Shown piece by piece: positions 10,161 to 48,977 of a stretch of 64,000 bases of DNA (position 1 is the stretch's first letter; each line of letters begins with the position of its first letter). A program made the translations under genes and the position numbers. Below the pieces are notes generated by a model. It was not told the DNA's origin. It worked only from the letters and a program-made list of their open reading frames with translations, and did no database searches. The stretch comes from Actinomadura sp. WMMA1423 (GTDB lineage: Bacteria; Actinomycetota; Actinomycetes; Streptosporangiales; Streptosporangiaceae), in the NCBI RefSeq assembly GCF_006547145.1, contig NZ_CP041244.1, positions 2,294,001 to 2,358,000 of the forward strand. Reading direction: 5' to 3'.

Positions 10161-10275
10161 CCGGCCAGCCCCGCTCCCGGCCAGCACCGCTCCCGGCCAG
10201 CACCGCTCCCGGCCAGCACCGCTACCCGGACAGGACCGCTACCCGGACAGGACCGCTACCCGGACAGGACCGCGG
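10161..10275. repeat. Tandem repeat array, 16-bp then 17-bp units
   Basis: Four consecutive 16-bp units close to CCGGCCAGCACCGCTC (10161-10224) are followed by three 17-bp units close to CCCGGACAGGACCGCTA (10225-10275). The two units are related to each other. The array begins right after the ABC ATPase stop and runs into the last codons of the convergent MocR gene, whose TAG stop (10256-10258) is itself part of a unit. There are no spacers, so it is not a CRISPR array. Confidence 0.9.
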
Positions 10276-18394: not shown

Positions 18395-19669
18395 TCAGTA
18401 GCCGCGTCCGCCCAGCATGCGGTGGCGGGCCATCGCCGAAAGGTCGGTCAGGGAGGCGATCTGGTCGATCACGGCCCGCAGCCGGGCCGCGTCGTCGGCG
18501 GCGTCGGTGAACGCGTCGCGGAACCCCGGGTCGAGGGTGCCCGGCGCGCCCGCGAGCATCATCTCCGCCAGCTCGGTGATCAGCGTCCGCTGGCGGGCCC
18601 TGATCTCCTCGTGGCTTATCCAGACGTAGTGCGCCGTGATGCCCTTGAGCAGGGCGTTCTCCAGCCGCTGCGCCCGCGGGACGATCAGCTCCGCCGCGTA
18701 GCGGGTGAGCGGTCGGTCGCCGTAGGCCTCCCGCGTGGCGTCCTCGGCGGCCAGGCAGAACCGCCCGATCAGCGTGCTGGTCAGGTTCTTGAGGGCGGCG
18801 AGGCTGCGGGGGGTGCCGTCGTAGCGGTCGGGCCAGTACGGCTCGGCGAGCAGCGCGGCGAAGCGCTCCTCGAGCTCGGCCTGCCCGGCGTCGGGGCAGT
18901 ACAGCTTGGCCGCGGTGGCGGCGACGAGGCGGCGCTCGCCGGGGTCGGCGAGCCGGCCGAAGTCGATGTGCCCGGCGACCAGCGCGTCCTCGAGGTCGTG
19001 GACGGAGTAGGCGACGTCGTCGCTCCAGTCCATGACCTGGGCCTCGAAGCAGGTGCGGCCCGGCTCGGCGCCGTCGCGCACCCAGCGCGCCACGTCGGCG
19101 TCGTCGTCGTAGACGCCGAACTTGCCGTTCACCGCCTCGGCCTGCGGCCACGGGTACTTCATCGCGGCGTCGAGCGCGGCGCGGGTCAGGTTGAGGCCGA
19201 CGCTGCGGCCGTGCAGGGGCGGGCCGTCCGCCGCGAACGACTTGGGCTCCAGCCGGGTCAGGACGCGCAGGCTCTGCGCGTTGCCCTCGAACCCGCCGCA
19301 GTCGCGCGCGACGATGTCGAGCGCGTACTCGCCGTTGTGGCCGAACGGCGGGTGCCCGATGTCGTGCGACAGGCACGCCGTCTCGACCAGGTCGGGGTCG
19401 CAGCCGAGGGCCTTGCCCAGCTCGCGGCCGACCTGCGCGCACTCCAGGGAGTGGGTGAGGCGGGTGCGCAGGCTCTGCACGGTGTCGGCCGCGGCGTCGG
19501 CGCCGGGCGAGGCCACCTGCGTCTTGGCGGCGAGGCGGCGCAGCGCCGCGCTGTGCAGGACGCGGGCCCGGTCGCGCTCGAACGCCGTGCGGTCGCGGCG
19601 CTTGGGGGGTTCGGGCGCCCAGCGCTGCCTGTCGCGGGCGTCGTAGCCCGGGGTCGTGTTGATCGTCAT
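18395..19669 (-). CDS. dgt: Deoxyguanosinetriphosphate triphosphohydrolase-like protein
   Basis: A 424-residue HD-domain hydrolase. Metal-binding residues are in THSLE and [14 protein letters not shown], with a further Asp in [17 protein letters not shown]. Dgt-type enzymes split dNTPs into nucleoside and triphosphate and influence dNTP pools and mutation. ATG 19669 ([10 protein letters not shown]) is chosen; the long upstream open frame belongs to the opposite reading of the next gene. In mycobacteria dgt and dnaG are adjacent; here they are separated by an accessory block of about 11 kb. Confidence 0.94.
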
Positions 19670-39411: not shown

Positions 39412-39429
39412 TCCGCGCTTCATCACAGG

Positions 39430-39542
39430 CCCGGCCCACTTCGCTCGCCTGGCGGCTGTGTCTTCAACAGTCCCGGCCCACTTCGCTCGCCTGGCGGCTG
39501 TGTCTTCAACAGTCCCGGCCCACTTCGCTCGCCTGGCGGCTC
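39430..39542 (+). repeat. 42-bp tandem repeat, about 2.7 copies
   Basis: The unit starts CCCGGCCCACTTCGCTCGCC and repeats exactly at 39430, 39472 and 39514. It begins just after the M4 peptidase stop. The third copy runs into a larger palindromic element. The GCCTxGCGGCTC portion also occurs in the 93-bp dispersed repeat. Confidence 0.9.
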
Positions 39543-39587
39543 GCTACGTGACCGTGCCTGGGCGAACGCGGCATCGCTTCGCGATCC

Positions 39588-39625
39588 GCCCGGTTCCGCT
39601 CGCCTGCGGCTTCACGGAACCGGGC
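39588..39625. repeat. Palindromic element after the tandem array
   Basis: Perfect 11-bp arms GCCCGGTTCCG / CGGAACCGGGC with a 16-nt loop, nested in wider pairing (GTGACC near 39548 with GGTCAC near 39628). This looks like a diverged member of the palindromic family found at 40.3 and 48.8 kb. Confidence 0.65.
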
Positions 39626-39683
39626 AGGTCACGCGTTCGCGCGCGTGGCCGAGGCCACTTCAGGACAGGCACTGATCCCGAAC

Positions 39684-40194: not shown

Positions 40195-40271
40195 CCCGCC
40201 TGGAGGCCGGGGAATGGACCGGGCCCACCAAGCCCAGCCACCTCCCCGGCCACGCAACGAGCTGAACGGGC

Positions 40272-40364
40272 GCGATCGCGTCCGAAGGCAGATTCGAGCG
40301 AAGCAAGAATCTGATCGCGCAGCGCGCCGCAAGGCGAGACGGAGCGATGCCAGCGATCGCCCGC
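40272..40364 (+). repeat. 93-bp dispersed palindromic repeat, copy 1
   Basis: Nearly identical to the reverse complement of 48762-48854, and the same length. It starts GCGATCGCGTCCGAAGGCAG and ends GAGCGATGCCAGCGATCGC plus CCGC. Internally CAGATTC (40289-40295) pairs with GAATCTG (40307-40313). Both copies lie downstream of or beside core genes, outside confident coding sequence. Confidence 0.9.
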
Positions 40365-40412
40365 GGTTTTCTCAGGTCAAGCGCCCCCAGGCGCTTGACC
40401 TGAGAAAACCGC
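40363..40412. terminator. 23-bp perfect hairpin over the uppS 3' end
   Basis: Arms at 40363-40385 and 40390-40412 are perfectly complementary (both contain GGTTTTCTCAGGTCAAGCGC or its complement) around a CCCA loop. The left arm abuts the 93-bp repeat. The uppS stop codon (40377-40379) lies inside the hairpin. Bidirectional termination between osmC and uppS is likely. Confidence 0.8.
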
Positions 40413-47753: not shown

Positions 47754-48644
47754 TCAGTCGTAGAAGCCGAGCCTGCGGAGCTGCTTGGGGTCGCGCTGCC
47801 AGTCCTTGAGGACGCTGACGCGCAGGTCGAGGAACACCTTCGTGCCGAGCAGCGCCTCGATCTGCCGGCGCGCCGCCGCGCCGACCTCCCGCAGCCGCGA
47901 ACCCTTGTGGCCGATGATGATCCCCTTCTGGCTGGACCGCTCGACGAACAGGTGGGCGTAGACGTCCACGAGGTCGTCGCGGCCCTCGCGGGGCGCCATC
48001 TCGTCCACGACCACGGCGATCGAGTGGGGCAGCTCGTCGCGGACGCCCTCCAGCGCCGCCTCGCGGATCAGCTCGCCGACCAGGACCTGCTCGGGCTCGT
48101 CGGTGAGATCGCCCTCCGGGTACAGCGGCATGCCCTCCGGCAGGTGCGAGATCAGCAGGTCGGCGACGAGGCCGACCTGGTAGCCGCTCTCGGCCGAGCA
48201 CGGCACGATGTCGGCGAACTCGCCGAGCCGCCCGACCGCGAGCAGCTGCTCGGCGACCCGCTCGGGGGCGGCGAGGTCGGTCTTGGTGACGATCGCGACC
48301 ACGGGGGTCTTCTTCACCCCCGCCAGCTCTCGCGCGATGTACTTGTCGCCGGGCCCGACCGGCTGGTCGGCGGGCACGCAGAACCCGATCACGTCGACCT
48401 CGGTCAGTGTGGACCGGACGAGGCTGTCGAGCCGCTCCCCGAGCAGCGTCCGGGGCTTGTGCAGGCCGGGGGTGTCGACGACGACGAGCTGCGCGTCCGG
48501 ACGGTGCACGATTCCCCGGATGGCGCGCCGCGTCGTCTGCGGGCGGCTGCTGGTGATCGCCACCTTCGTCCCGACCAGCGCGTTCATCAGCGTCGACTTG
48601 CCCACATTGGGCCGCCCAACAAAACAGGCGAAACCGGTATTCAT
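47754..48644 (-). CDS. era: GTPase Era
   Basis: A 296-residue ribosome-assembly GTPase. G1 is GRPNVGKST, G3 VDTPGLH, G4 TKTD and the effector region SRPQTTRRAIRGI; the C-terminal KH domain has KGIIIGHKGSRLREVG. ATG 48644 (MNTGFACFVGRPN) is chosen; the open frame extends 45 codons further but these would translate palindromic leader elements. The ribosome site AAGGAGGAG lies inside hairpin element A of the leader. Confidence 0.96.
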   Translation of the reverse strand: MNTGFACFVGRPNVGKSTLMNALVGTKVAITSSRPQTTRRAIRGIVHRPDAQLVVVDTPGLHKPRTLLGERLDSLVRSTLTEVDVIGFCVPADQPVGPGDKYIARELAGVKKTPVVAIVTKTDLAAPERVAEQLLAVGRLGEFADIVPCSAESGYQVGLVADLLISHLPEGMPLYPEGDLTDEPEQVLVGELIREAALEGVRDELPHSIAVVVDEMAPREGRDDLVDVYAHLFVERSSQKGIIIGHKGSRLREVGAAARRQIEALLGTKVFLDLRVSVLKDWQRDPKQLRRLGFYD

Positions 48645-48645
48645 T

Positions 48646-48695
48646 GCGTTTCTCTCCTCCTTCGGGCCTGGCGGCCCTCCATCGTCGAGAAACGC
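48646..48695 (-). repeat. era leader hairpin element A
   Basis: Outer arms GCGTTTCTC / GAGAAACGC (perfect 9 bp) flank a core CTCCTTCGGGCCTGGCGGCC, whose GGGCC/GGCCC form an inner stem. On the era transcript the element contains the AAGGAGGAG ribosome site and ends directly before the ATG. Confidence 0.8.
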
Positions 48696-48713
48696 GGGCG
48701 ATCTGTGCTTATC

Positions 48714-48763
48714 GCAGTGCACTCCTCCTTCGGGCCTTGCGGCCCTCCATCGTCGGGCACTGC
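48714..48763 (-). repeat. era leader hairpin element B
   Basis: Same core as element A, 68 bp away, with a GCAA loop on the inner stem. The outer arms have changed to GCAGTGC / GCACTGC but stay perfectly complementary. On the minus strand the position of the ATG is occupied by ATA. Confidence 0.8.
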
Positions 48764-48854
48764 GGGCGATCGCTGGCATCGCTCCGTCTCGCCTTGGCGG
48801 CTCGCTACGCGATCAGGTTCTCGCAGGCTCGAACCTGCCTTCGGACGCGATCGC
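48762..48854 (-). repeat. 93-bp dispersed palindromic repeat, copy 2
   Basis: Reverse-complement partner of 40272-40364. Stem CAGGTTC (48814-48820) with GAACCTG (48831-48837): compared with copy 1 one A-T pair is replaced by G-C on both sides. Apart from the loop the copies differ by two substitutions and one indel. Confidence 0.9.
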
Positions 48855-48929
48855 AACCATTGGGGTCGTCGCGTGGTTGCGCCGGTGGCCGGGGTCGACG
48901 CACCTTCGAAACCGGCGTGCGCGTTCATG

Positions 48930-48977
48930 GCAGTGTCCCTCCTCAGGCCTTGGTGGCCCTTCGTCGACGGGCACTGC
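48930..48977 (-). repeat. era leader hairpin element C
   Basis: Diverged third copy of the element: outer arms GCAGTG / CACTGC, inner GGCC/GGCC, core CTCCTCAGGCCTTGGTGGCC. On the minus strand it too has a GGAGG-type site followed by an ATG (ATGAACGCG), as if a start region had been duplicated. Confidence 0.7.

Follow-up and report, generated by a model that had tools for sequence, protein, structure and literature searches.

The window analysed here, a stretch of 64,000 nucleotides from Actinomadura sp. WMMA1423, holds two similar 93-nt segments in opposite orientations whose inner stem differs by the same base-pair on both arms. This locus raises the question of whether such paired changes reflect selection on a folded element or the way in which copies of a repeat are rewritten, and of what kind of element is involved. 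Copy A (40272-40364, + strand) and copy B (48762-48854, - strand) are both 93 nt long. An earlier note, made from the letters alone, had described them as inverted repeats with a compensatory change, and coordinates, alignment and stem letters bear this out: the inner stem reads CAGATTC/GAATCTG in copy A and CAGGTTC/GAACCTG in copy B, a paired change from A-T to G-C. The same note called them almost identical; the family identity stands (90.4% over 94 columns in a gapped BLASTN within the window, E 8.6e-31) and the wording is slightly generous, with 65 of the 93 positions identical in the ungapped comparison because two 1-nt indels offset each other. A short open frame running through copy B (48641-48928) was set aside, as the copies differ by 1-nt indels. 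According to Pfam, osmC and uppS flank copy A, and copy B is situated upstream of era (a call based on MMR_HSR1 and KH_2). The copies are therefore flanked by different core genes, as had been stated, and no transposase was found among the ten neighbouring proteins scanned around them, again in agreement with the note.

The element is larger than the 93 bp first recognised: a hairpin adjoins each copy (40363-40412; 48714-48763), and on the 5' side the similarity continues, more loosely, for about 30-45 nt. The features of the two loci are listed below.

40241..40271, + strand: 5' stretch of copy A, loosely conserved (alignment A1, upstream profile)
40272..40362, + strand: 91-nt core of copy A, with GCGATCGC ends, the inner hairpin CAGATTC/GAATCTG and a second hairpin with a GCAA loop (118.8 bits, covariance model)
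40363..40412, + strand: adjoining hairpin of copy A, long-palindrome type, with 23 paired positions in the predicted fold (sequence identical to L087)
48855..48885, - strand: 5' stretch of copy B (alignment A1)
48764..48854, - strand: 91-nt core of copy B, with the CAGGTTC/GAACCTG stem (106.4 bits, covariance model)
48714..48763, - strand: adjoining hairpin of copy B, loop type, with GCAGTGC outer arms and a GACGATGG.../...GAAGGAGGA internal loop
48646..48695, - strand: further loop-type hairpin with GCGTTTCTC arms, belonging to a 5'-truncated unit
48696..48703, - strand: probable remnant of a core 3' end (GATCGCCC) ahead of the preceding hairpin, judged from sequence
48930..48977, - strand: diverged third hairpin copy in the same era leader region (78% identity)

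Elsewhere in the window, at 10161-10273, tandem repeats with units of 16-17 bp were noticed (CCGGCCAGCACCGCTC, then CCCGGACAGGACCGCTA).

The search of the organism's own and related genomes that the note had proposed returned dozens of copies, genus-wide. In the own genome (G000, 9.53 Mb), BLASTN with the 93-mer gave at least 41 near-full-length copies (40 of the 89 first-look candidates were scored, and copy B is not among the matches listed), and R1, a covariance model made from 30 copies of the 91-nt core, gave 53 matches at E < 1e-7; such numbers put the resemblance of the two segments well outside what chance would produce. The own-genome matches at 18798 and 9501946 (L020 and L021) have identical surroundings over 3,093 nt in the same orientation, and this sequence suggests a single place carried by contig ends that would overlap by about 45 kb, not a true second copy. 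The nearest relative (G065, which together with G005 forms the two nearest relatives) has 60 matches at E <= 0.001. At least one match was found in 24 of the 35 other genomes of the genus Actinomadura, with 1 to at least 73 copies each, these counts being lower bounds (73 candidates scored per genome in the genus scan and 28 in the order scan, with stricter filters in both), and none in the 23 genomes taken from other genera. When 150 genomes of the order were scanned, a match at E <= 1e-5 turned up in 10, all within one of the 39 genera. A degenerate DNA pattern found at least 107 stretches in species-representative genomes; among the 80 matches listed, 79 are from Actinomadura and one is from Spirillospora albida. 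A plasmid or phage origin was rejected, as a 221-nt query matched no such record. The dispersed intergenic family that had been predicted thus exists. No description of an intergenic structured repeat in Actinomadura was found in the literature searched, which covers part of the literature. We conclude that this is a real, sizeable and structured repeat family, undescribed within that literature and, in the genus and order scans, restricted to Actinomadura.

A complete unit measures about 190 nt. It begins with a loose 5' stretch (about 30-45 nt), continues with the 91-nt core and, usually 1-3 bases further on, a hairpin some 50 nt long, and ends in an A-rich border (AATAA). The consensus fold of the core comprises an outer helix made by two GCGATCGC octamers, an inner hairpin (commonest loop type GAGCGAAGC) and a second hairpin (commonest loop type GNNA). 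The adjoining hairpin has highly variable outer arms and an inner stem, and its commonest form carries the purine-rich internal loops seen in copy B. Units were compared over BLASTN matches at E <= 1e-10 that reached the core end with at least 160 nt beyond and at least 60 nt before it (265 rows, 264 unique), 126 of the 264 coming from loci of the species-representative pattern scan or later. In 18 of the 264 copies, a long near-perfect palindrome stands in place of the loop-type hairpin. Copy A is of this kind, and the stability of its core and hairpin relative to shuffles (z -8.6 for one strand and -7.5 for the other) is driven by the palindrome; for copy B the values are just -2.7 and -1.6, and DNA parameters give -9.3, -8.6, -2.3 and -2.0 for the same four strands. 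When copy B is folded by itself as RNA, the inner hairpin does not appear in the predicted structure. Over the family, ten versions of the inner stem are fully paired, eight-pair forms among them, and imperfect ones occur as well (the pattern used was matched by 167 of 232 distinct cores). The 143 GNNA loops within the 15 commonest loop types split into 66 GNRA and 77 GNYA. An RNA GNRA loop is therefore not under strict selection, and selection at the RNA level is not clear-cut.

Covariation extends well beyond the single pair first noticed. In alignment A1 (30 copies, MAFFT, with an RNAalifold structure derived from the same alignment), double changes occur in 12 of 40 pairs against 5.0 in shuffles and the covariation score is 0.138 against 0.050; none of 500 shuffles reaches any of five measures, and slid versions of the structure score lower. 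Most core pairs are invariant in A1, so that the core signal comes from a few pairs and most of the signal from the adjoining hairpin. Two alignments fitted to the model gave eight pairs with double changes (A3, 46 rows from many species) and five (A4, 81 distinct rows). The 223 hairpins retained out of 264 after a filter on start and length display 74 distinct seven-base arms, and their seven variable pairs are 89.8% Watson-Crick, against 50.2% after re-dealing the arms among copies, many of the copies being orthologous and hence not independent. All nine outer pairs are Watson-Crick in just 85 of the 223. Because many copies and further covariation were found, neither of the two outcomes that the note had set against its own reading (no further copies, no covariation beyond one pair) holds.

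The note had also read the paired change as selection on a hairpin and not as simple copying. The covariation is accepted, but selection as its only cause is not, since whole-pair changes without intermediates fit gene conversion or template switching equally well. At 12 sites orthologous between G000, G065 and G005, the inner stem allowed 24 comparisons, of which 16 are the same, eight differ on both sides and none differs on one side only, although the 1-kb flanks are mostly 90-97% identical (lower at a few sites). The both-side changes are located at five of the 12 sites; at the 2092k site the three genomes have A-T, T-A and G-C, respectively. One of the 31 chosen stems was unread (G065 at 1976k, where the loop has an insertion), and the 1930k site, where the copies lie at different gene ends, was omitted. 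Pairing of copies is uncertain at 2620k (G005) and at 1821k, with tandem or nearby copies, which concerns five comparisons, all scored as the same; without them, 11 are the same, eight differ on both sides and none on one side.

These double changes without half-changed forms argue for the strongest alternative, in which the paired changes are mainly mutational, through template switching in quasi-palindromes and gene conversion between copies, and the repeat is a passive parasite. The long palindromes point the same way: in L322 (G065), the left arm mirrors the right arm, itself two bases off the usual GGCCCGAAGGAGGAGAGCACTGC. Template switching in replication is moreover documented to yield compensatory changes in one event, in the part of the source available (PMC8794818). 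This explanation is plausible without being the one that we would choose, and three observations speak against it. Firstly, read on the strand that runs 5' stretch, core, hairpin, the hairpin arms contain 73 G-U against 22 A-C cells, which would not be expected from a strand-symmetric mutational process, these cells being counted per copy, hence not independent, and open to skew by strand-biased mutation. Secondly, unpaired cells stay at 0.7 to 2.2% in A3, A4 and A1 (A3 and A4 being fitted to the structure). Thirdly, the internal loop of the usual hairpin recurs across many copies while the arms differ. Unless strand-biased mutation is responsible, the G-U excess points to folding of this one strand, be it as RNA or as single-stranded DNA, more than to symmetric cruciforms. 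The inner stem leans in the same direction (G-U 11, A-C 5). No strand bias is seen in the outer GCGATCGC helix (10 against 14), where A3 and A4 have mismatches that tend towards A-C; we therefore gave up the comparison of G-U with A-C as a proof of an RNA strand, as it is clear for the hairpin but not for the outer helix.

Presence and completeness of the element differ between close species at the same site: orthologous sites in G000, G065 and G005 are occupied, empty, tandem-duplicated or truncated. Over 13 comparisons, hairpins are 90% alike at orthologous sites against 74-79% between random copies, and the difference is slight for the cores (94% against 92-93%). Three occupied and empty sites were read. 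At the first (L188 in the own genome, at about 2.639 Mb, compared with L206 and L227), G000 has the element and a tRNA-Tyr gene, and G065 and G005 have tRNA-Tyr and two tRNA-Leu genes; these tRNA-Leu genes (anticodons gag and cag) are missing at the L188 place in the own genome. At the second, G000 has an ordinary hairpin in the place taken by the element in G065 and G005, and at the third G005 carries the second repeat family described below. The whole intergenic stretch differs at all three, and nothing there looks like a simple insertion flanked by a target duplication. As regards features of a MITE, the GCGATCGC repeats lie inside the unit and not at its border, and the orthologous empty sites differ as just described. 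An inversion of the element (L183 in G000 against L200 in G065 and L220 in G005) was considered and rejected, the sequence fitting better with an element that is missing through loss from one gene end and stands at the opposite one.

How copies are dispersed bears on a further possibility, namely that folded single-stranded DNA is recognised in trans by a transposase (IS200/IS605-like or other), the hairpin being a transposition end beside a T-rich site, TTTATT^GC in gene sense. The hairpin has a fixed end followed by about six conserved A/T-rich bases, T-rich-arm copies being little conserved further out, and several of the truncated units lack the 5' part but still possess the 3' hairpin end. 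GNA and GNNA loops, both present here, are typical of stable DNA mini-hairpins. We nevertheless regard this as unlikely. The Y1_Tnp domain of RAYT proteins occurs in 13 of 45 genus genomes without following copy number: at E <= 1e-5 none was found in G005, G008, G021 and G029, which have 46 to at least 73 copies each, and G028 has seven Y1_Tnp matches and no element. None of the three occupied-empty comparisons gives a clean insertion. A mobiliser gene beside the copies was also discarded, no transposase-like protein being seen among the 25 largest clusters of neighbouring proteins, as judged by length, position and first residues. RAYT was rejected as the mobiliser because Y1_Tnp does not follow copy number, and mobilisation in trans by a RAYT is not supported.

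The surroundings of the copies were described by means of a simple gene finder that relies on codon composition and had been checked against the window. This left 235 of the 264 copies usable (29 were dropped for an edge, an overlap or the lack of a neighbour), of which 94 lie between convergent, 128 between tandem and 13 between divergent genes. By comparison, the length-weighted intergenic space of 61 stretches is 16.6% convergent, 59.6% tandem and 23.7% divergent. The deficit of divergent sites is marked over all copies (p 8e-14), which are not independent, and can be seen in the own genome alone (3 of 36, p 0.03). The gene on the hairpin side points its 3' end at the element in 167 of the 235 copies (25 of 36 in the own genome, p 0.03), and in 71 of these 167 the stop codon falls between -20 and +15 nt from the hairpin end. 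Within tandem pairs the orientation bias is weak (73 against 55, p 0.13). A canonical intrinsic terminator, with a GC-rich hairpin and a U-tract, was ruled out: beyond the hairpin, the + strand continues with AATAA.. and the other strand with a few nt and GCGATCGC, neither having a U-tract.

The repeat can become part of its neighbours. The uppS reading frame, on the opposite strand, enters the hairpin of copy A and stops at 40377-40379, so the repeat encodes the last uppS residues. The frame crosses 36 nt of the 50-nt palindrome (40363-40412) and ends inside it. By eye, the C-terminal end of uppS differs in relatives without the element, and at this site the core is present in some species and the palindrome alone in others. 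In the era leader (window 48646-48977), three hairpin units stand in tandem. GAAGGAGGAG of the hairpin at 48646..48695 (- strand) stands just ahead of the era start codon at 48644, and ATGAACGCGCACGCCGGTTTCG, after the first hairpin unit of the leader, resembles the era start, which suggests from the letters a duplication that included the gene start.

The era locus also raises the possibility that the element is a cis-acting regulatory RNA, a leader or riboswitch-like structure with a Shine-Dalgarno-like sequence in its hairpin. Consistent with this, GAAGGAGGA of the hairpin occupies the expected Shine-Dalgarno position shortly before the era ATG in G000, G065 and G005, and likewise before an MFS_1 gene in G000. 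The bulk of the family makes it improbable as a general explanation: the 167 copies facing a gene 3' end on the hairpin side speak against it, and in 52 of the 68 cases with a right-hand gene on the same strand the predicted start is more than 50 nt away. No Rfam family matched the window at gathering score, and E-value searches of both loci gave only sub-gathering matches. A retro-element, whose RNA would be copied at the 3' end to leave the fixed A-rich 3' border (AATAA) and the 5'-truncated copies, is the least probable of all, since reverse transcriptase (RVT_1, in 13 of 45 genus genomes) was not found in the copy-rich own genome (G000), its nearest relatives G005 and G065, or G008 and G021, and was rejected as the mobiliser.

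A second dispersed family (AGCGAGCCNNNNGGCGAGCGAAGTGGGC, on one strand) was observed in the window at 39425-39660, a short way past an M4 peptidase stop codon. It has 57 matches in the own genome with up to three mismatches, and has in common with the core a hairpin of the form GCGAGCC-loop-GGCGAG. At seven of the eight loci checked it is turned the same way, towards the 3' end of a gene.

Judged by analogy of behaviour, the Actinomadura repeat appears closest to the REP/BIME and ERIC repeats. REP/BIME are described, in the parts of the sources at hand, as palindromic, composite and lineage-specific, with many extragenic copies mostly downstream of genes (PMC2817692; PMC3733652). The likeness proposed by the note therefore stands for behaviour (intergenic, biased to 3' ends, with tandem and truncated units, lineage-specific), and fails for mobilisation in trans by RAYT. 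Many extragenic copies that avoid promoter regions were indeed found (53 matches; 13 of 235 at divergent sites). However, REP is a palindrome of 20-40 nt with GTAG at one end, whereas the Actinomadura unit is about 190 nt long, has hypervariable arms and occurs in several copy-rich genomes without a RAYT domain; neither GTAG nor CTAC is present in the A1 consensus, and beside the hairpin one or the other occurs in 6 of the 264 copies. ERIC (IRU) is likewise intergenic and longer than 100 nt, and is thought, in the portion of the source available, to act on mRNA stability with orientation mattering (PMC2229807). By description and unaligned, ERIC differs in being 127 bp long with TA termini and target duplication; the Actinomadura consensus has another length and no TA termini, the unit carries a separate hairpin beside the core, and no target duplication was seen at the three site comparisons. 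As the repeat fails the REP tag, size and RAYT and the ERIC length and ends, we filed it under neither. CGTC-tagged palindromic repeats are similar in being palindromic and, in the part of the source available, without a dedicated transposase (PMC3733652). In the Actinomadura repeat, in contrast, CGTC lies within the hairpin (3' side, gene-sense strand) instead of tagging an end, and the unit is far longer. The pneumococcal BOX element resembles it by description in its stem-forming, tandem modules, but belongs to a different phylum and has a different anatomy.

Considering both structure and position, we favour the following explanation, which we hold to be probable: a structured, non-autonomous repeat of intergenic regions, confined to the genus Actinomadura, about 190 nt long in its complete form and REP/BIME- and ERIC-like, is retained at gene 3' ends as an mRNA boundary, with its arms rewritten in single events. 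The element would be dispersed by some activity, and would then be tolerated and partly retained at gene 3' ends. There, the folded module may act as a boundary of the mRNA 3' end, by termination, stabilisation or insulation between convergent genes. Occasional co-option is conceivable, as at era, where the repeat appears to supply the ribosome-binding site. Paired changes would persist because unpaired forms are disfavoured; each rewriting of the arms is probably one event, due to gene conversion between copies or to template switching. A bolder proposal, which we consider doubtful, is that of a mobile 3'-end cassette: a folded unit placed beside stop codons with its hairpin towards the gene would itself become the gene 3' end (the last codons at uppS, the ribosome site of the next gene at era), its arms being rewritten whole by template switching or conversion. 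If this is true, the present repeat and the AGCGAGCCNNNNGGCGAGCGAAG family would share one system.

Since no such Actinomadura repeat was found in the literature searched, the family would offer new material on gene 3' ends in a high-GC genus. Its interest lies in this tie to gene 3' ends and in the contrast between selection and copying as causes of covariation. Each genome offers the same stem at dozens of paralogous sites, to which close species add orthologous ones, and this makes the repeat a clean test case for asking whether covariation, by which functional RNAs are usually recognised, can also result from copying at the DNA level.
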